Shown here piece by piece: positions 6,469 to 46,285 of a DNA stretch of 64,000 bases (position 1 is the first letter of the stretch; each line of letters starts with the position of its first letter). Source of the DNA: Deltaproteobacteria bacterium. Its GTDB lineage: Bacteria; Myxococcota; Myxococcia; SLRQ01. A model generated the notes under the pieces. It saw only the letters and a list, made by a program, of their open reading frames with translations. It did no database searches and was not told the origin of the DNA. Position numbers and translations under genes: made by a program. The stretch is taken from the NCBI GenBank assembly GCA_029210625.1, contig JARGFU010000005.1:62001-126000 (forward strand). Direction: 5' to 3'.

Positions 6469-9400
6469 ATGAGGCAGACCTTGGCGATCCCGCGAGGGAG
6501 CAGAGGCCGCGTGCCGGACCCATGGTCCGGAGGCGGCTCCTCCCTCCTCCTGCTCGTCCTGTTCCTGGCGCTCCTCGCCTGGCCCTCCCGGGCCGCGGCG
6601 GTGGTGACCGGGACCGCGCCGAGCCTCTACCAGAGCTTCACCGTCCAGGGCTCGGCCCAGACGACGGGCAACACCCTGATGATCCTCGCCCTCGAGGATC
6701 CCCGGGTGAACGACACGCTGCTGGATCCCTCCTTCACCTCCGCGAACCTCTCCGGGGTGCCCATCAACGCCACCATCGAGGGGGCCTACGTCTTCTACTC
6801 CGGCCGCACCGACGCGGTCGCCGACGATCAGTTCGACTTCTACACCCCCGATGGCGTGATGCGGCCCCTGGTGGCCGGCCTCTGCCGCAACCTCACCTAC
6901 GGCGGCCAGAGCTTCTTCTACTGCCGCCGGGACGTCACCTCGCAGGTGCGCGCCGTCTCCGCCGCCCGGGGCGGTGACGTCAACGGCGTCTACAACGTCA
7001 ACGGCGTCCAGGCCCGGGTGGGCGTGCGCGGCAGCCTCTCCAACGGCTGCGCCTTCACCGATCCCGGCTGCCAGGCCGCCTACGCCGGGTGGTCGCTGGT
7101 GGTGGTCTGGTCCAGCGAGACGGCCCCGGGGGTGCGCAACCTCCTCCTCTACGACGGCTTCTACGGCTGCGACGAGACCACGACCTCGGGGATCTCGGCG
7201 CCGATCCCGCTCTCGGGCTTCACCGTCGGCGATCCCGCCGGCGGCGAGATCGTCTTCTTCGCCCTGGAGGGCGACCCCCACCTCGGCAGCCCCCCGGGGG
7301 GCATCGAGTGGGGCGACTGGATGCAGTTCAACCCGCAGAGCGGCAGCGGGGTGCTCCTCCAGTCGGCCTCCAATCCACCGCGCAACCTCTTCAACAGCAC
7401 GGTGCAGCAGGCGGGCGTGCCCTTCAACGGGGTGGACCTCGACGCCATCGACCTGGGGCCCACCGGGCTGAACCTGCTCTCGCCCGGCGACACCAGCGCG
7501 AGCATCGTCCCCGGCTCGGGGGACGGCGTCCTCGACGGCGGCCAGCAGGGGGAGCTCTTCATCCTCGGCTGGGTGCTCCTGGGCATCGACACCATCGCCC
7601 CCTCCCTGGGGCAGGCCTCGACCAAGCGGGTGGACAAGACCACCGCGGCCTCCGGCGAGACCCTCACCTACACCCTGACCCTCACCAACTCCGGCAACGA
7701 CTTGGCGCCGGGGGTGATCGTGCAGGACGCCCCGCCGGCGGGCACGACCTACATCCCCGGCACCACCACCCTCGACGGGCTGCCCGTGCCCGACAGCGGC
7801 AGCAACAGCGCCCTGGTCTCGGGGCTGAACATCGGGGACCTCGACTACCGGGTCGGCACCACCACCACCAAGACCGTCTCCTTCCAGGTGTCGATCGACG
7901 CGGGCACCTCCGACGGCGCCTCGATCTGCAACCAGGCGACCGTCGACTCCAGCCGCTCGGTGCTCGTCACCCTCACCACCAGCCCCTGCACCACCGTCCA
8001 GGCTCCTGAGCTGCGCGACCCGCAGGTGCTGGAGGTCACCGATCTGAACGGCGGGGTGGTCCAGCCCGGGGATCGCCTGCGCTACCGGGTCCGCCTCTAC
8101 AACGACGGCAACCAGCCCGCCCAGCAGGTCCGCTACGTCCAGCCCCTGCCCGCCCACGTGAAGGACCTGGTGGTCCTGGCGGTGCCGCCGGGCGCCACCG
8201 ACGGCTCCGCCCTGCCGCAGATCGACGTCTCCAACATCACGGTGCCCGGGAGCTTCTCGGTCGAGCTCCTCTTCGAGGTGACGATCCTCGACGAGGCCGA
8301 GCTGATCGCCGCCGGCGTGCCCTCCTCGGGCATCGACGGGCTGCTGATCTCCACCCAGGGTGAGCTGCAGGCCCCCTGGCTGACCGCGCCCCTGCTCACC
8401 GACGACCCCTCCACCGCCGCCACTCCGGACCCCACGCGGGTGCGCCTCTCCTACGCGGTGGATCTGACGAGCTCGGCCAAGGCCGGGGTCGACGACAACG
8501 GCGCCCCCCTCCAGGGCCGCGACACCGTCACCTACACCCTCACCCTGCGCAACACCGGGAACCGGGCGGCCACCGCCCGCATCGTGGACAACCTCCCGGC
8601 CGAGGTGGAGGCCTGCACGATCCTCTCCTCGCCCGTGCCCGCCACCTGCAGCGCCAGTGGGGGGACCAACGGGACCGGACAGCTCGTCGCCAACGGCATC
8701 CCCGTCTCGGCGGGGGGCACCACCCTCATCAGCTTCCAGGTGCGGGTGCAGGAGGACGCCATCGACGGCGCGCTGGTGACCAACGTCGCCTCGCTGACCG
8801 CCCTCGAGACCACCGGCACCCTCACCCTGAGCTCCACGGGCCTGCGGATCCTCAACCGCGCCCACCTCTCGGCCTCCACCAAGATCGTGGTGGACGCCAA
8901 CGGCGCCCCGGTGGAGCCGGGGGATCGGCTCGACTACCAGCTGGCCATCCGCAACTCGGGCAACCGGGCGGCGACCGGCGTGACCGTCTCCGACCTGATC
9001 GACACCAACCTCTCCATCCTCTCGGTGGGGCAGGGCGGGCTGATCTCGGGCGGCCAGGTCACCTGGAACGCCATCAGCACCCCGGCGCTCGCGCGGATCG
9101 AGCCGGCCCAGGAGGTGCTCCTCGACCTCGCCGTGCAGGTGAGCACCCCGCTGCCCAACGGCACCTTGATCTCCAACCAGGGCGTCATCACGGCCCCGGA
9201 GATCACCGGGCCGGCGCTCACCGACGATCCCACCACCCTCGAGGTCGGCGATCCCACCCGGGTGCGGGTCCAGAGCCTGCCCAACTTCGTCTTCGAGAAG
9301 CGGGTGATCGATCTCGGCGGGGGCCCCGTGCGCCCCGGCGATCGGCTCCGCTACGAGCTGATCCTGCGCAACACGGGCCCCGGCGACGCCACCTCGATCG

Positions 9401-12400
9401 CCGTGAGCGACGCCCTGCCGCCGGAGCTCTCGGTGGTCCGGATCGAGAACGGCGGCACCCAGGTGGGCGGCTCGCTGGTCTGGACGATCCCCTCGATGGG
9501 GGTCTCGCCCACCGGTGACACCCTCCTGGCCTTCGAGGCGGAGCTCGCCAGCCCGCTGGCGAACGGCACGATCGTCTCCAACCAGGCCGACCTGGTCGCC
9601 GCCGAGCTCTCCTCCGCGATCCTCTCCGACGATCCGGACACGCCCCTCCCGGCGGATCCGACGCAGGTGGTGGTCTCCTCGCAGGCCGACCTCTCCGCCT
9701 CGACCAAGGCGGTGGTGGATCTCAACGGCGGCGCGCACCTGCCCGGCGACGATCTGCGCTACACCCTCGTGCTGACCAACACCGGCGACGCGCCGGCCCG
9801 GAACGTGGTGGTCAGCGATCCGATCGCCGCCTGCCTCACCTCGGTGACGCCAGGGGAGGGCGGCACCCTCGCCGGGGGCCAGCTCACCTGGAGCTCGCCG
9901 CTCACGCCGACCCTCGCCCGCATCGATCCGGGCGCGGACGTGGTCCTCACCTTCGACGCCCGGCTCGCCGCGAGCCTGCCCGACGGCACGCCCTGCGCCA
10001 ACCAGGCCACGCTCCTCTCGAGCGATCTGCCGGGCCCCGTGCTCACCGACGATCCCTCCACCACGGCCGTCGACGACCCGACCGTGATCCTCGTCGAGTC
10101 CCGCCCCTCCCTGGAGGAGAGCGAGAAGCAGGTCGAGCTCGTGGCCGACCGCAACGGCGACGGCGCCTTCAGCCCCGGGGACGGGATCCGCTACACGCTG
10201 CGGATCCGGAACACCGGCTCCGAGGACGCGACCAACGTCCGGGTGCGCGATCCGATCCCCGCAGAGCTCTCCAACGTCGTGGCCACGCCCCCCGGCACCG
10301 TGGTGGGCACGGAGCTGCGCTGGACCTTCGCCACCCTCGCCGCCGGGGCGACCCGCACCCTCACCCTCGAGGCGGACCTCGCCTCGCCCCTCGACGACGG
10401 CGCGGTGATCTCGAACCAGGCCTTCATCGGCCGCACCGGCCTCACCACCGAGGTGGCCACCGACGATCCGGCCACCCCCGAGGTCGACGACGCGACGGCC
10501 TTCACGGTCGTCTCCACCCCGGATCTCTCGGGCTTCACGCTCGTGGCGATCGATCCGAACGGCGCGCCCTTGAGGCCGGGGGACGAGCTGCGCTACCGGC
10601 TGACCCTGGTGAACGAGGGCACGGCGCTGGCCCGGGACGTCTCCGTCACCCTGCCGCTCGACCCCAGCACCAGCTTCCTCTCGGCGAGCGCCGGGGGCGT
10701 CTACGATGCGAGCGCCCACGCCGTCTCCTGGGTCATCCCCCTGATCGGCATCGGCGCCGATCTGGCGCGGATCCGGACGGTGAGGACCCTGCTGGGCTCG
10801 CCCCTCGACAACGGCCTGCCCATCACCGCCCAGGCCACCGCCACGGCCGCCGGCCTGCCGGCGTCGGTCCTCTCCGACGATCCGGCGACGGCCGCCCTCG
10901 ACGATCCCACGGTCCGCTTCGTGGTGAGCGGCGCCGACCTCCACGCGAGCACCAAGACGGTCGCCGACGCCAACGGCGGCGACGTGCGGCCCGGCGACGT
11001 CCTGGCCTGGGCCATCCAGGTGCGCAACGACGGCGACGCCGTCGCCCGCAACGTCACCGTGGACGACGCCTTCGACGGCGCGCTCACCGGCCTCTCCCCG
11101 CAGCAGGGTGGGGTGGCCGCCGGCCAGAGCGTCCACTGGGACGCCTCCACGACCCCCGCGCTGGCGGCGCTGGCCCCCGGCGAGAGCCAGACCCTGGTGG
11201 TGCTCTCGGTCGTGGACTCCCCGCAGGACGACGGCACCCTCGTCGCCAACCAGGCCCTGATCTCCGCCGACGGCCTGGTCGCGCCCGTGCCCACCGACGA
11301 TCCCGCGACCGCCGCGGTGGACGATCCCACCACGGTGGTGGTCGTGGCCGCGCCGGAGCTCTCCGCGACCACCAAGACCTTCACCGCCACCGGCGGCCTG
11401 CCCGTGCGCCCCGGCGCCGTGGTGACCTGGACCCTCTCCACCCGCAACCAGGGGGACGCCTGGGCCCGGAGCGCGACCTTGCGCGACGCGCTCGATCCCT
11501 CCCTGACCTTCGTCTCGGCCTCCGACGGCGGGGTCTACGATCCGGGGAGCCACACGGTGAGCTGGAGCCTGGGCGATCTGCCGCCCGGCCCGATCTTCGA
11601 GCGCACCCTCCTCACCCGGGTGGTGACGCCCCTGGACCACGGCACGGTGGTCTCCAACCAGGGCCTGCTCGAGAGCCCGAGCCTGGCGGCCAGCCAGCCC
11701 ACCGACGATCCCGCCACGGCGGTCGTGGGCGACCCCACCACCTTCACGGTGGAGAGCGCGCCGGATCTCTCGTCGAGCACCAAGGAGGTCGTGGACCGCA
11801 ACGGCGGCGTCGTCGAGCCCGGTGACCTCCTCGACTACCGCATCTCCCTGATCAACAGCGGCGACATGCTGGCCCCCGGCGTGGTCACCCTCGACGACCT
11901 CGACCCGCGCCTCGAGGTGGTCTTCACCCAGGACGGCGGCCTCCACGACGCGGGCGCCGGCCGCATCACCTGGCCGGCGGTCGATCTCTCTCCCTCCGAT
12001 CAGCCGGTCGTCCGGCGCTTCACGGCGCGGGTGCCCCCGCTGACCGCCAGCGGCACGGTCATCGCCAACCAGGCCCTCGTCGCCGGGGCCGGGCAGTCGG
12101 TCCCCACCGACGATCCCAGCACCCCCGAGCCGGCCGACCCCACCGAGGTGGTGGTTGTCTCCGCCCCCGACTTCACCCTCACCGAGAAGACGGTGGTCGA
12201 CGACGACGGCGGGCTGCCCCTGCCCGGCGATCGCCTCACCTACACCCTGCGGGTGAAGAACACCGGCAACACCCACGGCACGGCCGTGCGGGTGCTCGAT
12301 CCCATCGACGCCCTCCTCACCGACGTGCAGCCGGGGCAGGGCGGCAGCTTCGATGGCAGCGCCATCCTCTGGGACCAGACCACCACGCCCGCCCTGGCGC

Positions 12401-15400
12401 GGGTCGCCCCGGGCACCAGCGGGGACGTGCTCCTCACCTTCACCGCCCGCATCGCCGCGGAGGCCCGGGACGGGGATCGGATCGCCAACCAGGCCCGGAT
12501 CGAGAACGCCGAGATCGGCGGCGCCGTGGTCTCGGACGATCCGACGACCCCCGCGCCCTCGGATCCCACCGTCCTCCAGCTGGCCCTGCCGGACCTCGGC
12601 TCGGCGACGATGACCGTCGAGGATCTCGACGGCGGGGACGTGGAGCCGGGCGACCGCCTGCGCTGGACCCTGACCCTCCAGAACCTCGGCAGCCACCCGG
12701 CCGAGGACGTGGTCGTCCGCGACGCCCTCGACCCCACGCTGCTGGTCGATCCGCAGGTCCTCGGGGGCTCCCTGGAGGGCGACGAGGCCGTCTGGAGCGT
12801 CGGCACCCTCGAGCCCGGGCAGCGCGTCGAGCTCTTCCTCGAGACCACCGTGGCGGCCCTGCTGGCCAACGGGACCGAGATCCCCAACCAGGCCACGATC
12901 ACCCTCGGTGACCTGCCCACCCTCGTCCTCACCGACGATCCCGCCACCCCGGAGGAGGACGATCCCACCACCGTGGTCGTGGTCTCGGCGCCCGACCTGA
13001 TCGTGCACAAGACCGTCGAGGACCTCACCGGCGACCTGGTCGTGCCGGGCGACAGCCTCCGCTACACCCTCACCCTGGAGAACGTCGGGAACACCCTCGC
13101 CACCCAGGTGCTGGTGGAGGACACCCTGCCGGCCCTCGTGGCGAGCTGGAGCGAGAGCCCCGCCGCCGTCACCGTCGATCGCCGGCTGACCTGGACGCCC
13201 ACCGAGGTGCCGGCCCTCGCGGCCGTCGCCCCGGGCGAACCCGTGGTCCTCACGATCGACGTGGTCCTGACCTCCCCGCTGCCCGACGGAACCCTCGTCG
13301 CCAACCAGGCCCGGGTCTTCCACGCCGAGCTCCCCGCGGCCGTGCCCAGCGACGATCCCACGACGCCCGCGCCCTTCGACGCCACGGCGGTGCGGGTCTT
13401 CTCCGCCCCGCGCTTCGACCACTCCGAGAAGACGGTGGTCGATCTGAACGGCGGCCTGATCGAGCCGGGGGACCTGCTCGAGTACACCCTCGTCATCCTC
13501 AACGACGGCACCGAGGACGCCCTGGGCTCGGTGCTGCAGGATCCCGTCCCGGCGAGCACCCGCTACGTGCCGGGCACCACCCGCCTCAACGACGCGCCGG
13601 TGGACGATCCCGCCGGCGGCGGCTCGCCCCTGGTGCTCGGGCTCTCCCTGAGCTCGGCCCGCCCGGGCACCCCGGCCGGCGTGATGCTGGTCTCCGACGG
13701 CGCGGCGCCGGACGACGAGGCCGCGGTCGTCACCTTCCGGGTGCAGGTCGAGGCGGGCGTCCTCGGCGGCACCGAGATCGCGAACCAGGGGCGGATCGCC
13801 TCCCTGCAGACCGAGGCCGTCGGCACCGACGATCCCGCCACGCCCACGCCGGGCGACGCCACCGTGGTGGTCGTGGGGCGGGCCATCCACCTCGGGGACG
13901 CCGGCAAGACCTGGAGCTTCACCCGCGACGAGGAGACCCCGGGCGTGGTCGAGCCCGGCGACCGGATCGCCTTCGAGCTCTCCGTGCCGAACCGCGGCAC
14001 CTCCACGGCCCACGACGTCGAGATCCGGGATCCCCTGCCCGCGGGGACCCGCTACCTCACCGGCAGCCTCACCCTCGACGGCCGGCCCCTGACCGACGCC
14101 GCCGACGGCGACCCGGGCCAGGTGGCCCTGGGCGCCGTGCGGGTGGTCGTCCCCTCGATCGATCCGCACGCCACCGCGCTGGTGCGCTTCGAGGTCGAGA
14201 TCGAGAGCGACGCCGGCCCCACGGTGGTCAACCAGGGTACGGTCTCGGCCCTCGACGAGACCGGCGTCCGGGTGGAGGTCCTCACCGACGCCGATCCCTC
14301 GGTGCCGGGCGACCAGGCCACCGTCATCCCCATCGGCGACGCGCCGGTGCGCGACCTCTCGACCTCCCTGAAGGCCGTGGTCGATCTCGACGGCGGCGTG
14401 GTGGAGCGGGGCGACCTGCTCCAGTACCAGCTCGTGGTCCGCAACACCGGCAACGTCCCGGTCGAGGAGATCTCGCTCTCCGATCCTCTCCCGCGCCACC
14501 TGGTCTACGTCTCCCACGAGACGCCGAGCGGCAGCAGCTCGCGCTTCGAGAACCCACCGGCGGGCACCGGCCAGGGGATGCTCCACTTCTCCCTCGGGGC
14601 GCCGCTCCCCGCCGGGGAGAGCTGGCAGGGCACCTTCCTGGTCCGCATCACCCACGACGCGCCGGACGGCGCGATCCTCTCCAACCTCGCCCTCCTCGAG
14701 GCGCGTGATCTGCCCTCCCGGGAGCTGGGCCCGGCGACCGTGGTGGTGGGCGCCGCGCCGGGGACCGGGGGCTACCTCGGCCGGATCTTCCTCGACGGCG
14801 ACCGCGACGGCGCGCTCGGCGAGGGGGAGGGCGGCCTGACCGGCTACAACATCAGCGCCGTCTCTCCGGCCAGCGGCGAGATCGTGCGCTCGGCGGTGAG
14901 CGACGCGCGGGGCGACTTCGCCCTCGTCGGCCTCCCGGTGGGGCCCTGGATCCTGCGGGTGAGCTCGGCCAGCGGCACCACCTTCGTGCAGGAAGCGGTG
15001 GCCGCGGCGCGGGCCGACGCCCTCGAGGTCCACGACTGCGCCATCGATCCCTCGGGCGTGGTCTACCGCGGGGACGACGGCAGCGGCGTGCCCGACGCCC
15101 GGGTCTGGCTGCTCTACGACCAGAGCCGGGTGGGGCAGGCCCCGCTGCCCTGCGACGAGGACCAGCGCCTGGTCACCCTCGAGACCGATCCCAACCTCGG
15201 CGCCAGCGAGACCCACCCCCTGCCGCGCCCGGTGGGCACCGCCTGCCTCCTCCCCGGCCAGCAGGGCCAGACCACCCCCCGGGGTGAGTCCGCGGGCTTC
15301 TACCGCTTCGACGTACCCCAGGCCGATCCGGCCATGGCCTACCAGCTCCAGGTGGTCCCGCCGGCGCCGCAGCTCGCCTTCCCCTCGGTGGTGCGCCCGG

Positions 15401-40149: not shown

Positions 40150-40575
40150 TTACTGCGCCTCGCCGCTCTTCACCAGCAGGACGGAGGCCGGCGCCAGCAG
40201 GCCGATCTGGTAGCTCAAGGTCCCCCAGCTCCGCGCCGGGGTCGAAGGATCGATCCGGTGGGAGGCGAGCACGACCAGCGCGTGGTCCGCGGCTTGGGTC
40301 ACGATGACCTCCACCCTGCGTCCCGCCTCGATCACGACCTCCGGCGCGCAGCCCTCGGCCTCCAGGGTCCGGGCGTGCGCCCCGAGCTGCTCGTGGGCGG
40401 CGCGCTCCAGCCGCGCGTAGAAGGCGGGCTCCTCCTCCCGGGACAGGCCGGGGATGAGCTCGACCACGTGGAGGAGGGTGAGCCGGCCACCCGGAGCGAG
40501 CAGGCTCGCGGCGAGCCGGAGCGCCTCGGTGTTGCGGTCGGAGAGATCGAGGGGAACGAGGATGGAGGAGAACAT
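40150..40575 (-). CDS. Universal stress protein, single UspA domain
   Basis: 141 residues. One UspA fold: SSILVPLDLSDRNTEALRLA at the N-terminus, LTLLHVVELIPG, and a C-terminal HALVVLASHRI ... IGLLAPASVLLVK. The ATP-binding G-2x-G-9x-G(S/T) motif is absent (ASHRIDPSTPARSWGT), so it is probably of the non-nucleotide-binding type. The SD AAGAAGGAGCC precedes the ATG. It lies 25 bases after the triple-Usp gene and 10 bases before ydfG on the same strand, so the three are probably one stress or redox operon. Confidence 0.92.
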   Translation of the reverse strand: MFSSILVPLDLSDRNTEALRLAASLLAPGGRLTLLHVVELIPGLSREEEPAFYARLERAAHEQLGAHARTLEAEGCAPEVVIEAGRRVEVIVTQAADHALVVLASHRIDPSTPARSWGTLSYQIGLLAPASVLLVKSGEAQ

Positions 40576-40600
40576 GCGGCTCCTTCTTTTGAGCTTCGGC

Positions 40601-41953
40601 TCACTCGGGGAAGGCGTGCACCACCATCACCGGGCGCTCGCTGTGGCGGAGCACCCACTCCGCGACCGAGCCGACCAGGGAGCGGCGTCCGGGCCGGCTG
40701 TGGGCACCGATGACCAGCGCGTCGGCCCCCAGGCGCTCGGCCAGGGCGACGATCTCGCGGCCGGGCTCCCCGCCCTCGATGACCTCCAGGCGGACCTCCT
40801 GCACCAGCTCCTCGGCGTCGGCGGGGATCAGGGCCTCGAAGCGCTCGCGCAGCAGGTCCCTGGCGTCGTCGTCGAGGACGCTCTGTTCGGGGGCGCGGAT
40901 CGGGCCGGGCACCACGTGGCAGACCTCCACCTCGCCGCAGGGCTCGGTCATGGCGATGGCGTGGGCCAGCACCCGGGAGGCGGCGTCGTCCACGTCGAGG
41001 GCGGCGATCACCTTCGAGTAGCGGGGCATATGCTCCAGCGCCTGGCCGACCTGCGGCTCGCAGATGCAGGCGACGGGGACCTCGGAGCGGGCCAGGAGCC
41101 GGTGGGCGACCGAGCCGCTCCAGAGGCGGGAGAGGAAGCCCCGGTGGTGGTGGCCGATGACGACGAGATCGGCCTGCTGGCGCTCGGACCAGTGGCTCAG
41201 GGGGTAGCTCACGCTGCCGATGCTGGGGGTGACGTGCACCTTCACGCTGCCCTCGCCGGGCAGCTCGCCCAGCCGGCGCTCGATCTCCCGGGCGACGATC
41301 TCCGCCACCTCGGGGTCGGCGTCGGTGAAGGTCCGCCGGCCGCGGAGCCCGAGGCGGGCGTACTCCACCGGCGGCCAGTAGAGGTGGAGGAGGGTGATGT
41401 CGCAGGGCCCCAGGGTGCGCAGGGTGTGCAGCCAGCGCATCGCCGCGCCGCTGGCCTGGGTGAGGTCGACGCCGCAGAGCACCCGCAGGTTGCGCTCTCC
41501 CCGGGCCCAGTTGGCGAAGCCGTCGTGCTTGCCGCGCACCACCAGCACCGGCCGATCCGCCCGCTCGACCAGGCGGTCGGCCACGCTGCCCAGGGGGAAG
41601 TGCTCGGTGGTGCGCCCCCCCCGGCTGCCGACCACGATCAGATCGGCCTCGTGGTCCTCGGCGAGGGTGACCATGCCCAGGGGGATGGTCCCGTCGATGG
41701 CCTGGGTGGAGACCGGGAGCCCCTCTTCGCGCAGGGGGAGGGCGAGGTTCTCCAGGGTCTCCTCGATGCCGCGCCGGAGGGTGCGGTTGAGCTCGATGGC
41801 GGTGGAGGCCTCGAGGACGGCCTGGGTGGGGACGGGCGGGTTGTAGACGTGGGCGAGGAGCAGCTCTCCCTTCGCCCGGCGGCAGAGATCGACGGCGACC
41901 TCGAGGGCAGCGCCGGCCGTCTCCGAGAAGTCGATGCCACAGAGGATCTTCAT
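40601..41953 (-). CDS. Triple-domain universal stress protein
   Basis: 450 residues from ATG 41953, with GGGAGGTACGCC as SD; upstream in-frame codons are ignored. Three UspA units in tandem: 1-145 (MKILCGIDFSETAGAA to RPVLVV), about 155-300 (LRVLCGVDLTQASGAA to VPVACI) and about 310-450 (SKVIAALDVDDAASRV to RPVMVV). Unit 1 has the full ATP motif G-SR-G-9x-GS. Unit 2 has His in place of the second Gly, and unit 3 is one residue shorter in this loop. So one intact and two degenerate nucleotide sites are predicted. Tandem pairs are common; triples are rare. Cytoplasmic; promoter not clear. Confidence 0.92.
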   Translation of the reverse strand: MKILCGIDFSETAGAALEVAVDLCRRAKGELLLAHVYNPPVPTQAVLEASTAIELNRTLRRGIEETLENLALPLREEGLPVSTQAIDGTIPLGMVTLAEDHEADLIVVGSRGGRTTEHFPLGSVADRLVERADRPVLVVRGKHDGFANWARGERNLRVLCGVDLTQASGAAMRWLHTLRTLGPCDITLLHLYWPPVEYARLGLRGRRTFTDADPEVAEIVAREIERRLGELPGEGSVKVHVTPSIGSVSYPLSHWSERQQADLVVIGHHHRGFLSRLWSGSVAHRLLARSEVPVACICEPQVGQALEHMPRYSKVIAALDVDDAASRVLAHAIAMTEPCGEVEVCHVVPGPIRAPEQSVLDDDARDLLRERFEALIPADAEELVQEVRLEVIEGGEPGREIVALAERLGADALVIGAHSRPGRRSLVGSVAEWVLRHSERPVMVVHAFPE

Positions 41954-42867: not shown

Positions 42868-44268
42868 ATGGTCGGACGAGGGAGCAGGCACGCAGCCTTC
42901 ATCGCGGTGGCGCTGCTCTCGCTCGCGCCGCCCGCCGCCGCGCTCGCCGCCTCCTTCCGCCTGGAGGCGCGCAGCGAGGCCTTCCTCTCCTCGCTGCCCG
43001 CGTGGCCCACCCGCCACGACGAGGTGGTGCTCCTGGGCCGCGATCCCCTGAGCCTGCGCCTGGATCTCTTCGGGGCGGAGCTCGTCGCCGGGCAGCAGCT
43101 CGACCTGGTCTCCTCCCTGCGCCTGGGGACCGATCTGGGCTGGCGCCTCGGAGAGGCCGAGGCCCTCGACGGCGCCGACCGCCACCGCGCCGAGGCCCTG
43201 CTCCTCTCCCTGCGCTGGCGGCTGCCGCGCCTGGGCCTGGAGCTGCAGGTGGGGCGGCAGCTCGAGCTGGCCGCGGTGCGCCCCCGCTACTTCGACGGCG
43301 CTCACCTGCGCTGGCGCTGGTCCTGGCTGGAGGTGGAGAGCTTCGCCGGCCTCTCGGTGAAGGACGGCAGCCTCCTGGGGCCCTCGACCTTCGAGGCGGA
43401 CGGCGTGCGCTCCAGCGACGCGGCCCTCGCCGGGAGGGTGGACGAGGCCGCCTGGCCCTTCGTGCTCACCGAGGAGCACGCCGCCCCCACGCTACTGGTG
43501 GGGACGGGCGCCGGCGTCGCCCACCCCCGCCACGGCCGCCTCCTGGCGGGCGTCGAGCAGGCGAGCTCGGCCGGGAGCGTGGATCATCGCCTCTTCACCT
43601 TGCAGGGTGAGGGTCACCTCCACGGCGGCCACCTCGGCACCGCGCTGGCCTGGGATCTGGTCCAGGCCGAGCTCGAGCTCCTCGATCTCCAGCTGGGCTG
43701 GCGCCTGGCCGGGGCGGGGCGCCTCTCGGTCTTCCACCGGCGCAGCCGCCCGACCTTCGACGGCGACTCGATCTGGAACCTCTTCGTCCGGGGCGACCGA
43801 GACACCACCGGCGTGAGCTGGCGCTCACCGCCCTCCCGGCGCCTGCGCGGCGGCCTCTCCTTCCACGACACCCGCCTCTCGGATCCCGTGCAGGCCACCG
43901 CCGAGCACGTCCTCGGCCTTCGGGCGCACCTGGGCTACGGGGCCAGCGCGCGGCTGCGCCTGCAGGCGAGCGGGACCCTCGAGTCGGGGGGCAGCGGCAC
44001 CCGCGGCTACCTCGTCCTCGGGGGCCGCGCCCGCCTCGACCGGCGCCTCGGGGCGCAGGTGGATCTGGCCGCCGGCTGGCTCGACGATCCCGGGCGCCTG
44101 CAGGGGCTGGTGCTGGGCTCGCGCTCGGGCCTCACCTACCGCTTCGACGAGAGCGCACGGGCCGGCCTCGCCCTGGAGCTGAACCACAGCCCGCTCTCCC
44201 GCCTCGACCTGCGGGTCCTCGGCCGCCTCGAGGTGGGCCTCGACGTCTTCTGGGGAGGTCGCGAGTGA
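42868..44268 (+). CDS. Outer-membrane beta-barrel (porin-like) protein of a cytochrome operon
   Basis: 466 residues with a signal peptide (HAAFIAVALLSLAPPAAALA). The mature chain is almost entirely short amphipathic strands with aromatic girdles (LRWRWSWLEVESFAGLS, HLGTALAWDLVQAELELLDL, LQLGWRLAGAGRLSVFHRRS), up to the C-terminus LRVLGRLEVGLDVFWGGRE, so about 20-24 strands are possible. No Cys-His motif. Its stop overlaps the GTG of the 13-heme cytochrome (GTGA). By analogy to MtrB, OmbB and ExtB, it could sheath the cytochrome across the outer membrane; this is inference from context, since no sequence match to those porins can be claimed by eye. Confidence 0.82.
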   Translation: MVGRGSRHAAFIAVALLSLAPPAAALAASFRLEARSEAFLSSLPAWPTRHDEVVLLGRDPLSLRLDLFGAELVAGQQLDLVSSLRLGTDLGWRLGEAEALDGADRHRAEALLLSLRWRLPRLGLELQVGRQLELAAVRPRYFDGAHLRWRWSWLEVESFAGLSVKDGSLLGPSTFEADGVRSSDAALAGRVDEAAWPFVLTEEHAAPTLLVGTGAGVAHPRHGRLLAGVEQASSAGSVDHRLFTLQGEGHLHGGHLGTALAWDLVQAELELLDLQLGWRLAGAGRLSVFHRRSRPTFDGDSIWNLFVRGDRDTTGVSWRSPPSRRLRGGLSFHDTRLSDPVQATAEHVLGLRAHLGYGASARLRLQASGTLESGGSGTRGYLVLGGRARLDRRLGAQVDLAAGWLDDPGRLQGLVLGSRSGLTYRFDESARAGLALELNHSPLSRLDLRVLGRLEVGLDVFWGGRE

Positions 44269-45542
44269 GGCGCTCCACCGCCCTGGCGCTCGCCGCCGCC
44301 CTCGCCCTCGCGGCGGCCCCGGCGCGAGCCGAGCCCTCCCGGGCGGTCTATCCGCCCCAGCGGATCGAGCTGCGCTTCTTCCACGACCGCCACCTCGCCA
44401 CCGGGATCCTCGGCTGCACCGACTGCCACCCGGCGAAGGAGAGCCGTCGCTCGGGGGACCGCCTGCTCCCGGGCCACCCGACCTGTGGGAAGTGTCATGC
44501 GGTCACCGCGCCCGAGCCCGCGCCCGTGGCCGACCCCGGACCCCAGCCCGAGCCCGATCCCATGCTCGCCTTCTACGGCGCGCCCCCGGCGCCCGAGCCG
44601 CCGCCGCCGGCGAACGACTGCAGCCTCTGCCACCCGCGCGTGAAGGAGGGGAGGGCGCCCGTGCCCCTCACCCTGCCCGAGCCGAACCTGCGCTTCTCCC
44701 ACGCGGCGCACCTCGCGAAGGGGGTCACCTGCGAGCGTTGCCACGGCGAGGTCTCGGCCCTGGCCCTCGCGACCCGCGATCAGCTCCCCCGCATGGCGAC
44801 CTGCCTCGAGTGCCACACCCGGCCCGGGCAGGCCCCCGGCCGCGCCTCCTCGGACTGCGCCACCTGCCACCTCTCCCGCCCCGGCGGCGGCCTGCGCACC
44901 ACCTTCCCCTCGGGGCGCCTCGTGCCCACCGAGGCCTTCCCCTCCCTGGCCCACGACGAGGCCTTCCGCCACCAGCACGCCGGGCCGGCGCGCAGCCAGC
45001 AGGCCCTCTGCGCCGGCTGCCACGCCGAGACCGAGTGCCTCGACTGCCACGCCGGCACCCTCAAGCCCTTCGGCCTCCACCCGGCGGACTGGCTGGCCCT
45101 CCATCCCCTCGCCGCGCGGCAGGCGAGCCTCTCCTGCGACGGCTGCCACCGCTCCCAGAGCTTCTGCGTCACCTGCCACGAGCGCCTCGGCCTCGGCCGC
45201 GACGCCCCCACCGGCCGGGTGCGGGGCGCGCCCCCCGGCGACGAGCCCACCTTCCGGGCGGCCAACACCAACCTGCGCGTCCACCCGGTGGGCTGGGCGG
45301 ACTTCGACGCCGCCGCCAGCCCCGATCACCACAGCGTCCACGCCCGCCGGAACATCGAGGCCTGCGTCTCCTGCCACCGCGAGGAGACCTGCCTGGGCTG
45401 CCACGCCGGCCTCGAGCGCGGGGGGAGCGGCGTCAGCCCCCACCCGGCCTCGGTGCTCGAGCGCTGTGACGCCCTCTTCCGGGCCACCCCGAGGGCCTGC
45501 GCCAAGTGCCACGACACCTCCGCGGGGGCCCCCTGCCCATGA
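44265..45542 (+). CDS. Periplasmic or outer-membrane multiheme cytochrome c with 13 CxxCH motifs
   Basis: 425 residues with a Sec signal (LALAAALALAAAPARA). Thirteen covalent heme-binding motifs are visible, in order: CTDCH, CGKCH, CSLCH, CERCH, CLECH, CATCH, CAGCH, CLDCH, CDGCH, CVTCH, CVSCH, CLGCH, CAKCH. Extra His residues (FFHDRHLATG, FSHAAHLAKG, HPADWLALHPLAA) can serve as distal ligands, as in cytochrome c3/c7-like folds. A Pro-rich insert (about 85-115) separates hemes 2 and 3. No CxxCK motif, so no NrfA-type catalytic heme. Likely role: electron transfer, possibly across the outer membrane with the neighbouring barrel. It is coupled on both sides by 4-base overlaps. Confidence 0.95.
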   Translation: MRRSTALALAAALALAAAPARAEPSRAVYPPQRIELRFFHDRHLATGILGCTDCHPAKESRRSGDRLLPGHPTCGKCHAVTAPEPAPVADPGPQPEPDPMLAFYGAPPAPEPPPPANDCSLCHPRVKEGRAPVPLTLPEPNLRFSHAAHLAKGVTCERCHGEVSALALATRDQLPRMATCLECHTRPGQAPGRASSDCATCHLSRPGGGLRTTFPSGRLVPTEAFPSLAHDEAFRHQHAGPARSQQALCAGCHAETECLDCHAGTLKPFGLHPADWLALHPLAARQASLSCDGCHRSQSFCVTCHERLGLGRDAPTGRVRGAPPGDEPTFRAANTNLRVHPVGWADFDAAASPDHHSVHARRNIEACVSCHREETCLGCHAGLERGGSGVSPHPASVLERCDALFRATPRACAKCHDTSAGAPCP

Positions 45543-46285
45543 CGCGGGCGATCCCGCTGCGCGCCCCGCTCGCGCTCCTCGTCCTGGCCGGCGGCTGCCT
45601 GGAGCCCGGCGCGTCCCCCTTCGGCGCCCGCGACGAGGAGGCGCCCCTGCTGGTCGCGAGCGTCCCCTTCGAGGGGGCCCTGCGGGTGCCCCCGGACGCC
45701 GAGCTCTACCTCTCCTTCTCGGAGCCCCTGGCCGAGGGGCAACCCACGCCCGGGCAGGTCCAGCTGCGCTCGGGCGAGCTGGTGGTCCCGGTCTCCATCG
45801 ACCATCCGCGGCCGGGCCTGGTGCGCCTGCTCCCGGGTGAGCCCCTCCACCGGGGCCTGCGCTACAACCTCGGCCTCGCGAACAGCCTCCACGACCCGGC
45901 CTTCAACCCCCTCGATCCCGCGTCGCCCCGCAACCTCGGCTTCACCGTCGCCACCGCGGACGACCCCCTGCAGGTCGTCGCCACCGAGCCCGGCGAGGGC
46001 GCGCAGGGGGTCGCCCGGCGCCTCGAGATCACCCTCGACTTCGACGTCCCCCTCTCGACCCTCACCCTCGACCGCGCCCACTTCGTGCTCGAGGACGAGG
46101 CGGGGAGCAGCGTCGGCCTGCGAGCGGCCCTCGACGACGCCGAGCCCCGGCGGGTGATCCTGACCCCCTTCGCCGAGCTCCCGGCGGACACCCTCCTCAC
46201 GCTCACGGTGACACCCGGGCTGCGGGATGTTCAGAGCCGCCACCTCGCGGTAGCGTTCGTCCTCACCTTCCGCACCGCGCCGTAG
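45539..46285 (+). CDS. Ig-like (Big_5/SbsA-type) lipoprotein of the cytochrome operon
   Basis: 248 residues. ATG 45539 sits in the cytochrome stop (ATGA). The lipobox LAGGC follows a short signal, so the protein is lipidated. Two Ig-like modules are visible: VASVPFEGALRVPPDAELYLSFSE with GLRYNLGLANSLHD, and VVATEPGEGAQGVARRLEITLDFD with LPADTLLTLTVTPGLRD. This bacterial Ig-like pattern is often seen on surface proteins next to extracellular cytochromes. No heme motif. It may help surface exposure or docking of the cytochrome (inference). The asparaginase starts 16 bases later. Confidence 0.85.
   Translation: MTRAIPLRAPLALLVLAGGCLEPGASPFGARDEEAPLLVASVPFEGALRVPPDAELYLSFSEPLAEGQPTPGQVQLRSGELVVPVSIDHPRPGLVRLLPGEPLHRGLRYNLGLANSLHDPAFNPLDPASPRNLGFTVATADDPLQVVATEPGEGAQGVARRLEITLDFDVPLSTLTLDRAHFVLEDEAGSSVGLRAALDDAEPRRVILTPFAELPADTLLTLTVTPGLRDVQSRHLAVAFVLTFRTAP

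Follow-up and report, generated by a model that had tools for sequence, protein, structure and literature searches.

A three-gene barrel, 13-heme cytochrome and Ig-like lipoprotein operon of the Myxococcota as a candidate trans-outer-membrane electron conduit

This study concerns a three-gene operon in a 64,000-nucleotide stretch of DNA (the window) from contig JARGFU010000005.1 of a deltaproteobacterial assembly, GCA_029210625.1 (Myxococcota; Myxococcia). The genes encode a 466-residue candidate outer-membrane (OM) β-barrel protein, a cytochrome with 13 CxxCH motifs and a lipoprotein with two Ig-like modules, and are joined by 4-base overlaps. A first-pass annotation had described the locus in these terms, and each element was confirmed by open reading frame (ORF) listing, motif counting and Pfam searches. 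The features are listed in Table 1.

Table 1. Coordinates of the operon and its features within the window (aa, amino acids).
Feature	Position	Strand	Description
Barrel gene	42868..44268	+	ATG start; 466 aa, mature ~439 aa; ~22 strands estimated; ORF listing
Barrel signal peptide, likely	42868..42948	+	Residues 1-27, judged by eye
Barrel/cytochrome overlap	44265..44268	+	GTGA, 4 bases
13-heme c-type cytochrome gene	44265..45542	+	GTG start; 425 aa; 13 CxxCH
Cytochrome signal peptide, likely	to ~residue 22	+	Judged by eye
Cytochrome c7-like stretch	44691..44870	+	Residues 143-202; PF14522
Cytochrome/lipoprotein overlap	45539..45542	+	ATGA, 4 bases
Lipoprotein gene, two Big_5 Ig-like modules	45539..46285	+	ATG start; 248 aa inside a longer listed ORF
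Lipobox	45584..45598	+	LAGGC (Cys20); sequence and homologue alignment; Leu, not Asp, after Cys
Second Big_5 module	45959..46276	+	Residues 141-246; Pfam search

The barrel protein begins with a signal-like N-terminus and matched no family in Pfam, NCBIfam or the Protein Data Bank (PDB) sequences; a PDB search with the barrel profile returned chance-level rows only. Alternation between inward- and outward-facing residues gave a z score of 5.4 standard deviations over shuffles of the same sequence. Six E. coli barrels used as controls scored 1.8 to 6.5 and three cytoplasmic proteins from E. coli scored between -1.3 and 0.4, while the window cytochrome scored -0.1 and the lipoprotein, itself predicted to be all-beta, 2.3. 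The high alternation fits a β-barrel. A strand scan predicted 22 strands from the window sequence and 22 from the family profile; a first version of the scan was dropped for over-counting (LamB 22, FadL 20, shuffles averaging 26). A 22-strand barrel, the strand count being an estimate, would have a computed backbone diameter of ~40 Å and a free width of ~30 Å. Judged by the rod width of MtrA-like cytochromes this is tight for a heme rod, yet passage is not impossible. The first-pass annotation had suggested a comparison with the MtrB profile. Membership of the MtrB/PioB family (PF11854) was ruled out, as neither the window barrel nor any of 25 aligned homologues matched it; the genome that contains the window had no PF11854 match above the cut-off.

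The cytochrome matches Cytochrome_C7 in Pfam (E 2.7e-16). Its 13 CxxCH motifs are nearly all invariant over 26 aligned homologues, so the number of heme motifs is no chance effect. Among 52 related cytochromes (type A, below), 12 histidines outside these motifs are kept at ≥90% and a 13th at 79%, which would suffice to ligate all 13 hemes in bis-histidine fashion. The established chemistry of multiheme proteins suggests that the protein works as an electron wire and not as a catalyst. The window cytochrome had no match to the DmsE/MtrA decaheme family TIGR03508 at 0.001; 4/26 aligned homologues did match, the best at 5e-7. When genome contigs were searched with the cytochrome alone, four weak relatives were found, and a barrel was nearby in none of the three inspected.

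Two stretches of the lipoprotein match PF13205 (Big_5; E 1.5e-18), as do 16/16 aligned homologues, most of which have a single Ig module. A CopC-like identity was ruled out, the match (E 0.044) falling short of the cut-off. By the Asp+2 rule, aspartate directly after the lipidated cysteine leads to retention in the inner membrane. That residue is leucine in the window protein and is never aspartate among the 16 aligned members, which argues against inner-membrane retention and makes placement in the OM likely.

A single-sequence search identified barrel homologues in 38 of the 147 genomes of the class, the source genome included. Around the 37 other barrels the cytochrome was the next gene in 33, with 13 CxxCH motifs in 32 cases and 12 in the remaining one. 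Queries with flanking genes (universal stress protein, TPR, asparaginase and zinc-ribbon) produced 0 matches in the stretches around the same 37 barrels; only the three operon genes, without their neighbours, recur jointly across genomes. Counts for the phylum (n = 195 genomes) were taken from profile searches, and cytochromes were assigned to the window type (type A) or to a second type (type B) by profile score plus tree, two genomes (G165, G152) by tree position. A type A cytochrome was found in 51 genomes and the matching barrel in 50 of them. Thus 50 genomes have both parts, one has the cytochrome alone, none has an intact barrel alone and 144 have neither. The cytochrome-only genome (G089) is 78% complete; its lipoprotein is present and a barrel of this type was not found. 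Where both parts occur, they are adjacent in 48/50 genomes.

The full three-gene set, which the first-pass annotation proposed to seek in other genomes, also recurs. A Big_5 lipoprotein gene lies beside the pair at 42 of 51 assessable type A loci, 41 times after the cytochrome, mostly overlapping its end (by 1-10 bases at the loci measured), and once before the barrel (L108 in G160). A 52nd type A locus (L068 in G086) was left out because it stops at a contig end; its genome has an orthologue of the lipoprotein on another contig. Lipoproteins at L103, L106, L115 and L118 were missed by the neighbour script and counted from inspection of the loci; they match Big_5. The lipoprotein could be a surface adhesin or an assembly factor that shares the operon and has no part in electron flow, an explanation that would suit both the commonness of Big_5 proteins (a match at 1e-10 in 122/195 genomes) and the loci without an adjacent Big_5 gene (9/51). 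However, the operon lipoproteins belong to an orthologue group of their own (E ≤ 6.3e-29), which occurs in 42/195 genomes, every one with a type A cytochrome and nearly always in the same place. Weaker matches start with a fragment in G109 at 8e-26; the remaining Big_5 domains score no better than 1e-19. We regard the adhesin or assembly role as unlikely.

The cytochrome tree was built from 69 rows, after 19 near-copies of 88 had been dropped, and separated two clades, both with supports of 100/100. The 24 rows with a Big_5 gene all fall in type A, and the 20 with a multiheme neighbour all fall in type B. A multiheme gene lies within 300 bp at 0/52 type A loci versus 20/36 type B loci, the latter being a sample of type B. 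At three type B loci (L137, L140, L142) the neighbour is a 12-CxxCH lipobox protein whose gene has a 4-base overlap with the end of the cytochrome gene, the same slot that the Ig-like lipoprotein occupies. The first-pass view of an Ig-like lipoprotein in place of a surface cytochrome is thus upheld, in that it holds a slot often filled by a multiheme surface-type cytochrome in the sister clade.

Type B includes an Anaeromyxobacter genome (G014) with a 344-aa cytochrome of 12 CxxCH motifs. From its size, heme count and map position we infer that this gene is Adeh_3392. Since one of the profiles (A2) holds Anaeromyxobacter-type rows, the E-values that it gives for type B are no independent evidence, and the fair tests are those with a single sequence or with type A rows only. 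By these tests the window cytochrome finds that of G014 at E 4.1e-14, and the type-A-only barrel profile finds the G014 barrel at E 6.8e-13 (positions 3-431). Type A is a clade of its own, and its sister group is the porin-cytochrome clade of the Anaeromyxobacter type. Both types occur in the window genome, where the type B pair lies on the contig of the window (G000:C5:239651-242037). This type B locus, outside the window (L143, G000:C5:239651-244842; locus 7663-12842), has two 11-CxxCH genes directly upstream of the barrel, one of them containing a NapC/NirT-family match, and smaller multiheme genes nearby.

An Anaeromyxobacter porin-cytochrome pair was described in 2014 (Shi et al., Group IV, two-gene pcc clusters). 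According to that text, cytochromes from the clusters of Anaeromyxobacter and Kuenenia have 338-344 aa and 12-14 hemes, Adeh_3392 of A. dehalogenans 2CP-C rises under Mn(IV) reduction, a surface cytochrome is missing from the described Anaeromyxobacter clusters, and the porins of porin-cytochrome (Pcc) systems, with 18-22 predicted strands, do not reach the size of MtrB (PMC4245776). ExtB has 18 strands, and related clusters, where different, typically differ by a replaced outer lipoprotein (PMC6148476). A porin-like gene adjoining a multiheme c-type cytochrome gene, the arrangement that defines Pcc systems, is present in the window and in 48/50 genomes, and both proteins are related in sequence to Anaeromyxobacter Group IV, as a sister clade. 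A surface multiheme cytochrome, which most but not all described Pcc members have and which is not a defining part, is lacking at type A loci.

The closest likeness is to the Anaeromyxobacter Group IV cluster (Adeh_3392 plus porin), which has an adjoining barrel and many-heme cytochrome, both homologous to those of the window, and was published without a surface cytochrome. Type A differs in forming a separate clade, in having 13 hemes rather than 12 and in its Ig-like lipoprotein. The extHIJKL cluster of Geobacter sulfurreducens is a conduit-like cluster in which a heme-free lipoprotein, ExtH, replaces the surface cytochrome (PMC6148476). By its description, to which this comparison is confined, ExtH belongs to the rhodanese family and is not Ig-like, and the periplasmic cytochrome is a pentaheme protein. 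OmbB-OmaB-OmcB of Geobacter, also compared by description, is likewise a set of three genes for a small porin, a periplasmic cytochrome and a lipoprotein, but the lipoprotein there is a 12-heme cytochrome (PMC4245776). MtrCAB and MtoAB share the logic of barrel plus multiheme cytochrome; unlike them, the window set has a barrel outside the MtrB family, 13 hemes rather than 10 and no adjoining MtrC-like lipoprotein.

Small-porin conduits, pairs without a surface cytochrome and a cluster with a heme-free lipoprotein are thus already known, as far as the sources covered describe them. The first-pass claim of a distinct type stands for the clade and for the third gene. It does not extend to the small barrel, given the strand numbers of Pcc porins and ExtB, nor is a heme-free lipoprotein unprecedented in a conduit, given ExtH. 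No earlier description of type A as a clade, of the Ig-like lipoprotein in it or of its presence in fruiting myxobacteria was found in the literature covered, which included few subscription journals and no supplements.

We interpret the three genes as a trans-OM electron conduit of the porin-cytochrome kind. This is probably correct, being well supported by comparison, though short of proof. It draws on the co-occurrence of barrel and cytochrome, their homology to the Anaeromyxobacter pair, the tree, the shared third-gene slot and the bis-histidine count, and it agrees with the conduit logic proposed in the first-pass annotation. The barrel, which travels with the cytochrome, would form a sleeve of about 22 strands in the OM. 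The cytochrome would sit in the barrel and the periplasm as a chain of 13 bis-histidine hemes, for which the motifs and ligands suffice in number, and would connect carriers in the periplasm to the cell surface for electron transfer. The heme-free Ig-like lipoprotein may sit in the OM and dock or cap the cytochrome, a place frequently taken by a multiheme lipoprotein in the sister clade. Because no surface cytochrome is encoded beside the set, electrons may leave or enter directly at the last hemes of the chain.

Electrons could instead flow inward, fed through the chain to terminal oxidases by a donor outside the cell, for instance Fe(II) or a second cell. The source genome has three COX1-type oxidase genes, and inward-flow conduits exist in Rhodopseudomonas TIE-1 (PMC6148476). 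However, no donor-side enzyme was seen adjoining the operon, and the Anaeromyxobacter relative rises under Mn(IV) reduction (PMC4245776), so inward flow seems unlikely. Also unlikely is a model in which the cytochrome stores or relays electrons in the periplasm, the barrel is a substrate channel for a periplasmic reductase, the lipoprotein only tethers and no electrons cross the membrane: the absence of an adjoining multiheme cytochrome at all 52 type A loci, the often aerobic hosts, and three genomes (G129, G091, G089) that keep cytochrome and lipoprotein together without the barrel beside them would suit it, but the near-perfect co-occurrence with one barrel family and a sister clade organised like known conduits, multiheme lipoproteins included, would not.

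Several observations weigh against the conduit interpretation. The first-pass annotation held that homologues with barrel and cytochrome apart would refute it, and in 2/50 genomes (G129, G091) the two, both present, lie on different contigs, with cytochrome and lipoprotein still together. The lone barrel of G129 adjoins a MoxR-type ATPase gene and that of G091 a gene which, by eye, resembles it. In the genus of G111 a type A cytochrome is found in only 13/27 genomes (G095-G121), and five more genomes of that genus keep barrel fragments only. This genus can do without the set, whose parts disappear jointly; this joint decay of barrel and cytochrome in five genomes we counted for the conduit. 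At nine assessable type A loci no Big_5 gene adjoins the set (G030, G031, G038, G156, G161, G163, G164, G165 and, from another phylum, G241). The strand scan was home-made, used approximate residue propensities, and was exact for 4/6 known barrels and missed 2/6. Single-sequence AlphaFold2 models, made without an alignment, were unusable (mean pLDDT 30.6 for the mature barrel and 40.2 for the mature cytochrome). Finally, many carriers are aerobic myxobacteria for which we know of no extracellular respiration.

Some loci have features of their own. Operon remnants in one genus comprise a fusion of the barrel N-terminus to the lipoprotein (L144), a barrel fragment with part of a cytochrome behind it (L070) and, at three loci, nothing but short barrel N-termini (L145, L146, L147). 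At L058 (G110) the type A barrel is split over two reading frames, and cytochrome and lipoprotein are intact. L155 (G241), in another phylum, is a type A pair with 13 CxxCH motifs and no lipoprotein. In family f11 (L112, L114-L119) the set lies, by eye, near TatA/B-like, PilT-like and RecA-like genes, a neighbourhood common to these loci and unlike that of other families. In the window, universal-stress-protein-like genes lie upstream of the operon on the minus strand (40150-41953), one of them encoding 450 aa with three Usp stretches.

Carriers of type A include the fruiting species Myxococcus stipitatus (DSM 14675) and Cystobacter fuscus (DSM 52655). The presence of the set in fruiting, aerobic myxobacteria is a surprise: myxobacteria are described as strictly aerobic in the text covered (PMC2330069), and within the group the literature covered credits extracellular electron transfer to Anaeromyxobacter. 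One developmental transcriptome text on M. stipitatus gave nothing on the cytochrome or porin. It is possible, if doubtful, that type A is a phylum-wide lineage of Ig-capped conduits whose surface-exposed 13-heme chain lets aerobic, social and predatory myxobacteria swap electrons with kin, prey or minerals. Working type A conduits would extend extracellular electron transfer to fruiting, aerobic genera, which is testable in cultured strains. A conduit could then end in a heme-free Ig-like part, which would bear on how much a surface cytochrome is needed.

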